Shown in pieces: positions 17,928 through 21,651 of a stretch of DNA of 33,219 bases. The stretch's first letter is position 1. Each line of letters opens with the position of its first letter. Source of the stretch: Opitutales bacterium (lineage in GTDB: Bacteria; Verrucomicrobiota; Verrucomicrobiia; Opitutales; Oceanipulchritudinaceae); the NCBI GenBank assembly GCA_020831525.1, contig JAFIGH010000056.1, positions 1 through 33,219 of the forward strand, given 5' to 3'. The position numbers and the translations under genes are program-made. The notes under the pieces are model-generated. The model did no database searches, was not told the origin of the DNA, and saw only the letters and a list, made by a program, of their open reading frames with translations.

Positions 17928-18749
17928 ATGCACAGAAAACAATCCATCTTCGCGGTCGCCGCAGCCGTAGGTTTCGCCGCCTCGCTCGGGGCGCAGGTCT
18001 TCAGCTTTGACGAGCTGAATCAGCCCTACACGCAGGACTTCAACGCCTACAGGGGAACAGCGGCGACGCTGCCGGATAACTTCTCGGTCTCGTGGGACGA
18101 GGGCGAGATTGAGCCCCCGGACGATCCCTTCACCGGAGTCGGGGATTTCGCGACGAGCGATCCCGATACTTCCTACGGTGCGTTCTCCGCCTTCACGTCG
18201 GACAACAGCGACTTCTCCTTCGGCATCCGCGAGCGGGCGCCCATCGACCTGCGCGACGCGCGCCTGTTCTTCGCCTTTACGAACAATACGGGCGTGTCCG
18301 TTTCCTCCTTCGAGGTGAGCTACGATGTGGAGGCGTGGTTCATCGGCGACCGCCGCAACCGCATCCGTCTGAAGTACGACACGCTGCTCGACAGTCCGGA
18401 CCGCGATACTTTTGAGGTCGACATCTTCTCGACCGACAACCCGTCCGCCGAAATGACCGTCGGGACGAAAGTCGACGGTTCGCTGGCCGCCAACCGGACG
18501 ACGGTCTTCGGCACCGTCGACCTCACGACACTCGACGACGGCACGGGCGAAATGTTCGGCGCACTGGCGCCCGGTGAGACGGCCTATTTCCGCTGGCAGT
18601 TTTCCAACACCGACGGCGACGGCGGATCGCTCCGCAGTGGTCTGGCGATCAACAATCTTTCCATCACCGCCATTCCGGAACCGTCGGTCTATGCCGCTGT
18701 CGGCGGTCTGCTGGCGTTGGTCCTTGTCTGTCTGCGTCGTCGCCGCTGA
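17928..18749 (+). CDS. PEP-CTERM secreted protein (paralogue A)
   Basis: A 273-residue exported protein. A signal peptide (MHRKQSIFAVAAAVGFAASL, cleavage near GAQ) is followed by a beta-sandwich-like domain of about 215 residues and a PEP-CTERM tail: PEPSVYAA, a hydrophobic helix and a final RRRR cluster. PEP-CTERM tails are cut and sorted by exosortase. No exosortase gene lies in the window. The domain (FNAYRGTAATLP near the start, RLFFAFTNNTG then VSSFEVSYDVEAW in the middle, AYFRWQFSNTDGDGG then SLRSGLAINNLSI at the end) resembles beta domains that I recall next to extracellular nuclease or phosphatase domains, but no catalytic domain is present. The start is supported by AAGG eight bases upstream. 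The next gene encodes a close paralogue with a different C-terminus. The upstream open frame through the tRNA is not coding. Confidence 0.92.
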   Translation: MHRKQSIFAVAAAVGFAASLGAQVFSFDELNQPYTQDFNAYRGTAATLPDNFSVSWDEGEIEPPDDPFTGVGDFATSDPDTSYGAFSAFTSDNSDFSFGIRERAPIDLRDARLFFAFTNNTGVSVSSFEVSYDVEAWFIGDRRNRIRLKYDTLLDSPDRDTFEVDIFSTDNPSAEMTVGTKVDGSLAANRTTVFGTVDLTTLDDGTGEMFGALAPGETAYFRWQFSNTDGDGGSLRSGLAINNLSITAIPEPSVYAAVGGLLALVLVCLRRRR

Positions 18750-18786
18750 GAAAGCGGCCGTTCGTCTGCCGGGTTCGTCCCCGGAA

Positions 18787-18820
18787 GCGCGTCCCGAGGG
18801 GTTGGGGCGCGCTTTTTTTT
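18787..18820 (+). terminator. Terminator after paralogue A
   Basis: A 9-bp stem (GCGCGTCCC at 18787-18795 with GGGGCGCGC at 18804-18812, one G-T pair) is followed by eight T. It ends the paralogue A transcript just before the repeat array of paralogue B. Confidence 0.92.
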
Positions 18821-18825
18821 GACGA

Positions 18826-18858
18826 TTGTAAGCAGGGCGTCACGCGGTTGTCACCGGA
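18826..18858 (+). promoter_or_regulatory. Pho-box-like direct repeats upstream of secreted paralogue B
   Basis: Three heptamers start at 18826 (TTGTAAG), 18837 (GCGTCAC) and 18848 (TTGTCAC), each 11 bases apart. The last is a perfect TTGTCAC. The array lies between the terminator of paralogue A and the start of paralogue B, where a promoter must be. I could not identify a convincing -10 box. Confidence 0.5.
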
Positions 18859-18933
18859 GAGGCGCACATTGGGTGGGGGAACGGGGCCAACCGGGCTTTC
18901 TTCCCGCCTACAACACCAACTCGAAAGAATACG

Positions 18934-20025
18934 ATGAAATACCGAATATTGACTGTCGCCGCCGCCATGGCAACGACCGGCCTCGCCGCCGAAGACGTCC
19001 GCTTCTTCTTTGCCTATCCGGGGCAAGTTTTCGCGGAAGACTTCAATGCCTACCGCGGGACACCGGAGACCCTGCCGGTGTTCTTCTCCGTCTCATGGGA
19101 CGAGGGCCGGATCCTCCCGCCGGACGATCCGTACACCGGAGTGGGGGACTTCGCGACGTCGGACCCGGATTTTGAATACGGTGCCTTCGCCGCATTCACC
19201 GCCGACGGGGAGAACCATTCCTTCGGCATCCGCGAGCGAGAGCCCGTCGACCTGCGCGACGCGCGGCTGTTCTTCGCCTTCACAAACCACACGGGCGTGC
19301 CCATCGACGGCTTCAATGTGAGTTACGACGTCGAAGCTTGGTACCGCGGCGACCGCCTGAACCGCATCCGGCTGAAATACGACACCTACCTCGAACGGGA
19401 CGCCCGCGATACTTTTGAAATGGACATCTTCAGCACGCCGAACCCGAGCGCGGCGGAGAGCCTCGATCCGGACACAAAGCAGGACGGCAGCCTTCCGGAG
19501 AACCGGACGACGGTCTCCGGCTATGTCGATCTATCCGCCGTCGTCATCGACCCGTCGGACGCTGAGGGGGCGACCTTCGGGCCGCTGCTGCCGGGGGAGA
19601 CAGCGTATTTCCGCTGGCAGTTCTCGAACCTTGAGGAAGGGGAGTCTGGATCTCTCCGCAGCGGTCTCGCCGTGAACAATCTGCGTATTGTTCCCGTGGG
19701 CGGCTCGGCCGGGCTGTGCGCGGAGGCCGGTGAATCGGACAACCACCCGTACCTCGGAGGCCTATACCAGCTCGGCGGCTGCTGGGCGCTTCTCTGGGAC
19801 GGCGTGGGTGAGGTCGATTGGGGGATCGCCTATGTCCGCGATCTCGATCCGGACGGCGCGGGTTGGATCTACCATGAAACAGCGGGCTGGCTGTACGTCG
19901 GTTTCGGTGACACCGCGACGGGGCTGTTTCTGTATTCAGCGGATGCCGACGACTGGATTGTCGCCGCGGATGCGTACGGAGAACTCTACTACAGCCGTGC
20001 GGACGACGCCTTCTTCCCTTGGTGA
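18934..20025 (+). CDS. Secreted protein, paralogue B, with aromatic-rich C-terminal module
   Basis: A 363-residue exported protein (signal peptide MKYRILTVAAAMATTGLAA). Residues of about 20-265 are a clear paralogue of the protein at 17928-18749: FNAYRGTPETLP, YTGVGDFATSDPD, SFGIRERE then PVDLRDARLFFAFTN, YDVEAWYRGDRLNRIRLKYD and SGSLRSGLAVNNLRI have near-identical counterparts. Instead of a PEP-CTERM tail it ends in a ~100-residue Trp/Tyr/Gly-rich module (DGAGWIYHETAGWLYVGFGD, then LFLYSADADDWIVA) related to the end of the protein at 130-1242. The function of both domains is unknown. The gene has its own Pho-like upstream array and shares a bidirectional terminator with the porin gene. Confidence 0.92.
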   Translation: MKYRILTVAAAMATTGLAAEDVRFFFAYPGQVFAEDFNAYRGTPETLPVFFSVSWDEGRILPPDDPYTGVGDFATSDPDFEYGAFAAFTADGENHSFGIREREPVDLRDARLFFAFTNHTGVPIDGFNVSYDVEAWYRGDRLNRIRLKYDTYLERDARDTFEMDIFSTPNPSAAESLDPDTKQDGSLPENRTTVSGYVDLSAVVIDPSDAEGATFGPLLPGETAYFRWQFSNLEEGESGSLRSGLAVNNLRIVPVGGSAGLCAEAGESDNHPYLGGLYQLGGCWALLWDGVGEVDWGIAYVRDLDPDGAGWIYHETAGWLYVGFGDTATGLFLYSADADDWIVAADAYGELYYSRADDAFFPW

Positions 20026-20057: not shown

Positions 20058-20089
20058 AAAAGCCCGGTTCCGCGAGGAACCGGGCTTTT
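20058..20089. terminator. Bidirectional terminator between paralogue B and the porin gene
   Basis: A perfect 14-bp inverted repeat (AAAAGCCCGGTTCC at 20058-20071, GGAACCGGGCTTTT at 20076-20089) with a GCGA tetraloop gives a T tract on both strands. It serves the two convergent genes. Confidence 0.95.
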
Positions 20090-20121
20090 CATTTGGTGCG
20101 AAACGATTGTCGGCCTCGGGG

Positions 20122-21579
20122 TCAAAACTCCAGCTGGGCGCGGAAGGCGAAGACGTTGGCCGTGGTCCGCTTGCCGTCGAGGTTTTCGGCGTCGACATAG
20201 GCATAGTTGAGTTTGAGGACGATTTCGGGGATGGGAAACCAGTTGAGACCGAGGGTCCAGTGGTCCATCTCGTGGCCGTCGTAGTCGCGGGAGTTGGAAT
20301 CGGCGGTAGCATAGCGCAGGGCGAGTTGCCATGCCCCCGGACCGCCGTCGCGGCTCCCGAAGGGATTGTTCACCTTGGGCGCGCCCATATCACCGCTGTC
20401 GGCGCGGTACGTGTGGGTCTCGCCCGTGAGGAACCATGAGGCCTGCGCGTACCAGCCTTCCAGGGAGAGTGACTCGAGACCGAAATCGCGGTTGATGTCG
20501 ACCCACAGGTATTCGCCCTGCACGGCGAAGGGTCCCCAGCCCTTGGCGAATTCAAGGGCGGCGCGGCTGAAGTCTTTGACATTGGGGATGTCGTTGAGGC
20601 CGATCATGCGCCCGTCAACGGCGCGGGTGCCGAGGCGGGAGCGCAGGCGCACGTCGATGTATTCGCGGTTGCGGCCCTCGCGCTGCCGATAGGCGTTTTT
20701 GCGGTAGTTGGCGGAGCCGCCGATGTGGAGGAAACGATCCTCCTCGTTGATCGGGGCGAACGACGCCCGCCCGGCGAGGGAGAAGCCCTCCGTGATGCGT
20801 CGGTTGCGGACCACGCTGTCGCCCCCGAAGGCTCCGAGCCCGATATACATGTCGGGGCGGATGGTTTCGTAGAGGAAACCGAGTTCGCGGTCCGGCCTGT
20901 ATGCGTCGACCGGTGTGGCCCGTTCGATGAACGTGATGCGGCGGGAACTGGTGGAGCTTTCCATGTTGAAGGGCTCCTTGAAGTGGCCGATGGCGAAGCG
21001 CGACTGGTCCCAGCCGAGGTAGGCGATGTAGGCGTTGGCGAAGCGGACTTCGAGGTCGCGGAAATCGACTTCAAGCTGCCATTCCCAATCGTAGTTCCAG
21101 ATGCCGAGGGCACCGAGGCGGGCACGGCGGATGATCGATCCGTAGCGCGCCATGTCGCCGTCAACCGTGTCCTGCGCGTCGTCCCAGTCGACATAGGCGA
21201 AGTCCGCCATAAGGCGGCCGCGGATGCGGAACCGGTCGCGGCCGTCCGGCGTTTCAACCCCGAACTTCCGCACGCGCGCGGGCATCGGTTCGGTGCCGAG
21301 CGGTTCGGCGGGTTCGTAGTGGACTCCCGGGCTCAATTCGGCGGAGGGGCCGACACGTGCCGCCTCCTCCTCCGCGCGGCGTCGCGAGCGCTCCATGGCG
21401 CGCCGCACTTCGGCGTCGGTGAGTATGCCTTTCTCGACGAGCACTTCGAGAAGGACGGCGACATCGATGTCGCGCGTGTCCGCCGCCGCGAAATGGGCGG
21501 GCACGGCGAAGGCAGCGAATACTGCGGCGAGGGCCGCGGCCCGGAGCCGCGGCTTTCCTGTTCGGAAACACGTTTGCAT
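20122..21579 (-). CDS. Outer-membrane porin, OprP/OprO (phosphate-selective) family
   Basis: A 485-residue outer-membrane beta-barrel. Residues 1-32 form a signal peptide (RAAALAAVFAAFAVPAHFAAA). A short helical coiled-coil region (VLLEVLVEKGILTDAEVRRA) precedes the barrel. The barrel shows the OprP/OprO family pattern: RFRIRGRLMADFAYVDWDD, RRARLGALGIWNYDWEWQLE, YLGWDQSRFAIGHFKEPFNM and a final aromatic residue (FRAQLEF) used by the Bam machinery. OprP is a phosphate/polyphosphate porin in Pseudomonas, but many homologues have unknown specificity. ATG 21579 gives the correct signal peptide; the frame continues to 21636. The gene is divergent from the ABC importer across a region with two Pho-box-like arrays. 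Confidence 0.9.
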   Translation of the reverse strand: MQTCFRTGKPRLRAAALAAVFAAFAVPAHFAAADTRDIDVAVLLEVLVEKGILTDAEVRRAMERSRRRAEEEAARVGPSAELSPGVHYEPAEPLGTEPMPARVRKFGVETPDGRDRFRIRGRLMADFAYVDWDDAQDTVDGDMARYGSIIRRARLGALGIWNYDWEWQLEVDFRDLEVRFANAYIAYLGWDQSRFAIGHFKEPFNMESSTSSRRITFIERATPVDAYRPDRELGFLYETIRPDMYIGLGAFGGDSVVRNRRITEGFSLAGRASFAPINEEDRFLHIGGSANYRKNAYRQREGRNREYIDVRLRSRLGTRAVDGRMIGLNDIPNVKDFSRAALEFAKGWGPFAVQGEYLWVDINRDFGLESLSLEGWYAQASWFLTGETHTYRADSGDMGAPKVNNPFGSRDGGPGAWQLALRYATADSNSRDYDGHEMDHWTLGLNWFPIPEIVLKLNYAYVDAENLDGKRTTANVFAFRAQLEF

Positions 21580-21651
21580 TGTCTGTGTTGGTTGTCGGCG
21601 TCCTGCGGCCTGATTGCCGGAGGACGTCCTGAACAAGGGTCACCGCGGGGT

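Follow-up and report, generated by a model that had tools for sequence, protein, structure and literature searches.

The window, the whole stretch of 33,219 nucleotides that was analysed, carries two genes in tandem on the forward strand, 184 bases apart. Gene A (positions 17,928 to 18,749; 273 aa) encodes a signal-peptide-like start, an exported domain (17,997 to 18,671) and a PEP-CTERM-like tail (18,672 to 18,749, including the stop codon). Gene B (18,934 to 20,025; 363 aa) encodes a signal-peptide-like start, the same exported domain (19,003 to 19,692) and a C-terminal Trp/Tyr/Gly-rich module, its tail (19,708 to 20,022). The limits of the shared domain were taken from alignment A5 and, in A, from the point at which the homology ends. 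A convergent gene for a phosphate-selective porin O/P (20,122 to 21,636, reverse strand; PF07396, E 7e-60) marks the locus.

Proteins A and B were compared using BLASTP, and 161 of 254 residues (63%) were identical (E 7e-104); the mature domains share 69% identity. The homology of the N-terminal domains reported by an earlier, sequence-only reading was thus confirmed, and their length was revised from about 215 to about 226–234 aa. The homology breaks off at one point, at which A reads ...RSGLAINNLSITA and B reads ...RSGLAVNNLRIVPV; beyond it the tails are wholly different. Hairpin-like repeats with T runs were seen by eye 3' of B (about 20,058 to 20,092) and of A (18,786 to 18,822), and are absent from the pattern-scan list; such hairpins would imply separate transcripts.

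The C-terminus of A, IPEPSVYAAVGGLLALVLVCLRRRR, consists of a PEP motif, a hydrophobic stretch (best 15-residue hydropathy 2.52) and a basic end (RRRR), and so has the motif, hydrophobic helix and terminal basic cluster by which PEP-CTERM is defined in Haft 2006 (PMC1569441). At 13.9 bits for TIGR02595 (curated cut-off 16) and 7.3 bits for PF07589 (curated cut-off 20.7) it scores too low for either model, and the PEP-CTERM label is therefore based on this architecture together with homologues whose PEP-CTERM tails are clear. Four exosortase matches (PF09721) were found in the same genome. The description of A as ending in PEP-CTERM holds by architecture, homologues and exosortase, and falls short by model score. 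The tail of B has neither a PEP motif nor a basic end, its best 15-residue hydropathy is 1.01, and the tripartite architecture is absent.

The aromatic module and its fold

The tail of B measures about 105–110 aa, close to the 100 or so first proposed, and is indeed rich in tryptophan (6%), tyrosine (8%) and glycine (16%). No Pfam or NCBIfam family came near its cut-off. Used as a single query against its own genome, the tail matched two further copies (E 8e-13 and 9e-12), and with a six-row profile the number rose to 38 at E ≤ 1, the strongest match outside the rows themselves having E 2e-16; because of these matches the composition cannot be put down to chance. The eight weaker matches (E 0.08–0.6) are mixed, and some may be chance: five end 7–75 residues from the stop codon, one lies 141 residues before it, another falls in an ORF that had given a match before, and in the last (L112) more than 230 residues follow.

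A classic form of the module has the consensus (profile A6) GW..S.WFG.F....WIYH..LGWLY.......WFYD..LGWLWT....YPYLY......WLYF......FYDY.T..W. Among the 30 strongest matches of the genome, the B form differs from it in having an additional unit at the N-terminus and in being shorter at the other end; the two were aligned using hhalign (20 classic against four B-type rows) with a probability of 96.4 and E 1.3e-9 over 51 columns. Profile A6 was made of 67 rows from named genomes together with the tail of the window (68 rows). Pfam gave stray matches to these rows only, to OCRE (PF17780) in three rows (best 0.0035), to WW (PF00397) in one (8e-4) and to four more families, each in a single row, and NCBIfam gave a single match (0.082). 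The profile contains a repeat of about 20 residues, a modest signal with z 3.4 and 2.9 at offsets 39 and 20, the highest values among 42 offsets examined; at offset 8 z is 2.7.

The classic module of L167, modelled with AlphaFold on the 68 rows, gave an all-beta hairpin fold of 11 strands (pLDDT 91.2, pTM 0.78). The tail of B was modelled only as part of the full-length protein, from a shallow alignment and with low confidence (pLDDT 53.7); in that model strands are seen as far as residue 256, and those of the hairpins from 277. The model by itself proves little on whether the tail belongs to the fold of the N-terminal domain, and the portability of the module is the better argument against it. 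Matches to known structures were too weak to indicate kinship: Foldseek against the PDB gave no match to the classic module at E 1e-3 (best 1.7), the best of 262 aligned chains in the VIA fold search had a Z of 3.0, with no choline-binding chain among those listed, and the best E in BFVD was 0.84. A sequence search of the PDB returned one match at E 1, PBSX XepA. The absence of a relative is no proof of a new fold.

The tail of B is a member of an undescribed family of about 90–105 residues, usually C-terminal and built of about five aromatic beta-hairpins. No description of it was found in the open-access literature, which is no proof of absence, since most subscription papers lay outside that scope; the module and its architecture appear new, and a swappable localisation module is as a kind already known. 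With neither a Pfam or NCBIfam model nor a recognised solved relative, the module is a target for domain definition and structure determination.

Profile A6 matched 54 times in the genome of the window and in 16 of the 17 genomes of its family, with 5–58 copies in each of the 16. G505, 80% complete, gave no match. A DNA pattern, W-x-Y-H-xxx-G-W-x-Y, was found in at least 118 stretches of genome contigs. Among the 80 matches listed, 72 belong by title to Verrucomicrobiota (many titled Opitutales or Opitutia), three were judged to be chance from short ORFs, and five loci come from four isolates labelled Deltaproteobacteria or Syntrophobacteraceae. These four genomes gave 16, 7, 11 and 5 matches, so their loci are not stray single contigs; their labels or their binning as MAGs may be wrong. 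In the phylum sample, eight of 387 genomes matched A6 at E 1e-5 and 11 matched profile A2 at 1e-3, the genome of the window included in both; these counts are lower bounds, as no more than 13 candidates per genome were scored. The A2 matches in the f3 genomes G075, G152 and G369 were weak, and that of G369 looks unrelated.

Variant and damaged copies were also seen. The variant WLGWYNDQFWPWIWDYQHGTWLWVVDNG... occurs seven times in a genome of another family of the phylum (G023; L045, L055, L060 and L066), including five copies on a single contig. L047 (G075) and L048 (G152), from a different family of the order, contain a unit of weak similarity close to the C-terminus, WLGRF..GTWIDHAVLGRLEF. 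In L020 (C35:11348-11551 of the own genome) the module lies in a 107-codon frame with no start codon, and probably represents the terminal part of a gene that is broken or has shifted frame.

Position and carriers of the module

All of the 30 strongest among the 38 matches in the own genome end within 44 residues of the stop codon. Position was then scored over the pattern matches: 77 non-chance loci gave 78 motif matches, of which 73 copies were scored, the modules cut short in L128, L156, L191 and L195 and the open end of L192 having been left out by eye. In 54 of the 73 the distance from motif to stop was at most 95 residues, which places the module at the end of the protein; it was 96–150 residues in nine and more than 150 in ten. 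Eight of these ten were scanned downstream (L174 and L184, the latter perhaps a frameshift, were outside the scan) and Pfam domains were found in seven: an FGE-sulfatase domain in L196, cyclophilin and FKBP domains in L134, and InlB-type repeats in L133, L163, L183, L188 and L193, with none in L143. The phylum search supplied 25 loci, in 19 of which the protein ends no more than 22 residues after the match; the six others are L063, in which an FGE-sulfatase domain follows, L064, in which pullulanase-associated domains follow, L054, L061, L067 and the doubtful L049. In L163 (197-1990) some 70 residues separate two modules, the second of which contains a frame break, and the second ORF of this locus ends in a further module; the first copy in L163, scored as terminal, is probably internal. 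The sequence-only reading had raised the question whether the tail is always C-terminal, and the ten internal copies, some of them weak cases, answer it in the negative; with 54 copies ending their proteins, neither is it mostly internal. A C-terminal place is thus usual for the module but not obligatory.

A signal-peptide-like N-terminus was assigned to 28 of 30 carriers in the own genome using a hydropathy heuristic, an upper estimate as the best of several starts was taken with no control set. Domains were sought in 27 of the 29 further carriers, and 20 of the 27 had a Pfam domain over cut-off: purple acid phosphatase, subtilase with P domain, reprolysin, CotH, endonuclease I, FG-GAP, PQQ and another propeller, PPDK_N, PATR, pectate-lyase-like, Ig-like, BACON and others; two trypsin-like matches were below cut-off. 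The partners of the tail are thus unrelated kinds of domain on exported proteins. No common substrate was apparent among the scanned carriers, and only one or two of the 27 look as if they act on polysaccharides.

By analogy with type IX secretion, such a module could be a targeting signal for a dedicated, undescribed outer-membrane machine for export or attachment. This is the chief rival of the retention role proposed below, and one that we consider improbable though serious. A folded domain of about 90 residues, biased to the C-terminus, on unrelated cargo, in 5–58 copies in each of 16 family genomes and mainly in one class of bacteria would suit such a signal; the terminal bias (54/73) and the tens of copies per genome are as much to be expected of a secretion signal as of retention, and count to that extent against the latter. 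The rival does not account for the internal copies (10/73), some of them before FGE-sulfatase, cyclophilin/FKBP or InlB-type domains, nor for the tandem copies in L163. A module that is portable, mostly terminal and sometimes internal or doubled points instead to a binding domain, as the retention role would have it.

Exchange with PEP-CTERM tails

The N-terminal domain was searched for in 273 genomes of the order and found in seven, the own genome included, with weak matches in G010 and G131. In G155 the orthologue of B (L070) carries the module and a paralogue (L077) ends in PEP-CTERM. G514, of the same genus, has an A-like piece and a piece with the B tail, both at contig ends, and the homologues of G443 and G535 have PEP-CTERM tails. 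A midpoint-rooted tree was built from seven rows, two of them fragments. In it B groups with L070 of G155 (support 100/99), A and the piece from G514 stand beside this group in an order that has no support, and the other clade (100/100) is made up of the three PEP-CTERM homologues. The most parsimonious reading of these sequences would be an ancestor with PEP-CTERM and one exchange, on the branch of B, before the two genera split.

The neighbourhood fits duplication in place. In G535 the PEP-CTERM copy adjoins, on the same strand, a porin gene with 44% identity to that of the window (L073/L078), and in G514 (L080) the B tail is followed by a porin at 95%, convergent as in the window. Tail exchange in A and B, as first proposed, was upheld. 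The pair is a natural experiment, one domain with two tails in a single genome, in which the effect of the tail is directly testable.

Exchange was also sought by comparing the ectodomains of 95 PEP-CTERM proteins, chosen among the 150 matches listed (A not among them), with those of 108 module proteins. Seven of the 108 matched a PEP-CTERM ectodomain at E 1e-4. In three further families the homology reaches both tails: L164 and L135 with L321 (39% over 601 aa, E 3e-86, for L164), L081 with L309 (27% over 303, E 6e-9) and L155 with L326 (33% over 133, E 8e-9). Four candidate pairs were rejected: L116, in which the module match is weak (E 0.318); L105, which is internal and has PATR repeats; L094, in which no more than the N-terminal portion of an ectodomain of 1589 residues is covered; and L285, in which the homology lies far from the module. 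In the A/B family and the three others, module and PEP-CTERM alternate on homologous ectodomains, as the earlier proposal had anticipated.

This alternation bears on two other explanations. The module might be a carbohydrate-binding module that keeps enzymes on a polymer outside the cell; its aromatic-rich beta fold and the internal copy of L064 with its pullulanase-associated domains would agree with that, but only one or two of the 27 partners scanned look like polysaccharide enzymes, and the module alternates with PEP-CTERM, so that we hold it to be quite improbable. It might also be a stabilising or oligomerising cap with no part in location, the location of the carriers being putative; against this slimmest of the readings stand the homologous ectodomains that bear either the module or a sorting tag, and the signal-peptide-like starts on nearly all carriers read.

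Exchange has not meant replacement throughout the genome. A PEP-CTERM match over cut-off is present in 15 of the 17 family genomes and the module in 16; the two counts show no inverse relation (Spearman 0.39, p 0.13), and both follow genome size (0.80 and 0.70). The family genome G496 has 57 module matches, two exosortase matches and a single PEP-CTERM match, and almost all of its tagged proteins seem to use the module.

Nor does the module resemble a PEP-CTERM tail. The mean of the best 15-residue hydropathy was 0.54 in the 68 module rows versus 2.12 in the 95 PEP-CTERM tails, a value of 1.6 or more was reached by one of 68 versus 88 of 95, and the net charge of the last eight residues was −0.6 (rows as cut for A6) versus +4.3. 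Of the 19 genomes that bear the module, 16 have an exosortase match, as do 15 of the 17 in the family, and given this co-occurrence a link between the two is still conceivable; the module is not restricted to exosortase-bearing genomes, as no exosortase match was found in G451 (23 modules), G608 (28) or G611 (18), the completeness figure, 94%, being that of G451 only. Sorting of the PEP-CTERM kind is therefore unsupported: the absence of helix and basic end, the internal copies and the genomes with no exosortase match led us to reject a strict C-terminal sorting signal. Of the original suggestion of an alternative device for localisation or anchoring, the device itself survives as the best reading; a C-terminal signal for sorting in the PEP-CTERM manner does not.

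A proposed role and known systems

We propose that the module is a portable, non-covalent surface- or matrix-retention module that acts beside exosortase sorting, and give this a probability of about one half. It would do for its carriers what exosortase and PEP-CTERM do for others, by a different route: the aromatic hairpins would bind a putative ligand and so hold the exported protein, presumably uncleaved, at the surface or in the matrix. At this locus a PEP-CTERM protein would have been duplicated to give A and B, the copy B then swapping its tag for the module. Neither sequence nor fold searches gave a PDB relative that hints at the ligand. More tentatively, Opitutia may have an unrecognised protein-placing system parallel to exosortase, with a partner of its own (a surface glycan or an outer-membrane machine), serving tens of exported proteins per genome, trading cargo with PEP-CTERM by tail exchange, occurring also in some bacteria labelled deltaproteobacterial and using a fold with no recognised solved relative. 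If this were true, dozens of unannotated exported proteins per genome would gain a predicted place, as PEP-CTERM and LPXTG have given elsewhere.

Several known systems invite comparison. OCRE has an aromatic-rich sequence pattern, and the module resembles it and WW in this respect; the matches (three and one of 68 rows) are isolated and weak, and the context of the module is exported and bacterial. Folded C-terminal domains direct the cargo of type IX secretion, and the module is likewise a folded C-terminal domain on many unrelated proteins. To our knowledge the type IX domain is always C-terminal, a rule from which the module departs by its internal (10/73) and tandem copies. A search for SprA gave no match in any of the 17 family genomes, and the same model was without a match in every control genome.

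Choline-binding repeats are about 20 residues long. The module is also an aromatic beta-hairpin structure with a repeat of about 20 residues; no choline-binding family was matched by Pfam among the 68 rows at E 0.1, and a ligand is hypothetical here. Choline-binding repeats provide non-covalent retention at the surface through aromatic beta-hairpins (PMC4471590).

GlyGly-CTERM with rhombosortase and LPXTG with sortase share the swapped-tail pattern: families with alternative GlyGly-CTERM, LPXTG or PEP-CTERM tails are taken as a sign of common processing themes in PMC3237569. Those tags are tripartite, and the module is not. PEP-CTERM with exosortase (EpsH) is similar in that a C-terminal region is common to many unrelated exported proteins per genome (PMC1569441). 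The module differs from it in being about four times longer, folded and free of PEP motif, membrane helix and basic end, in that it can be internal, and in its presence also in genomes with no exosortase match.
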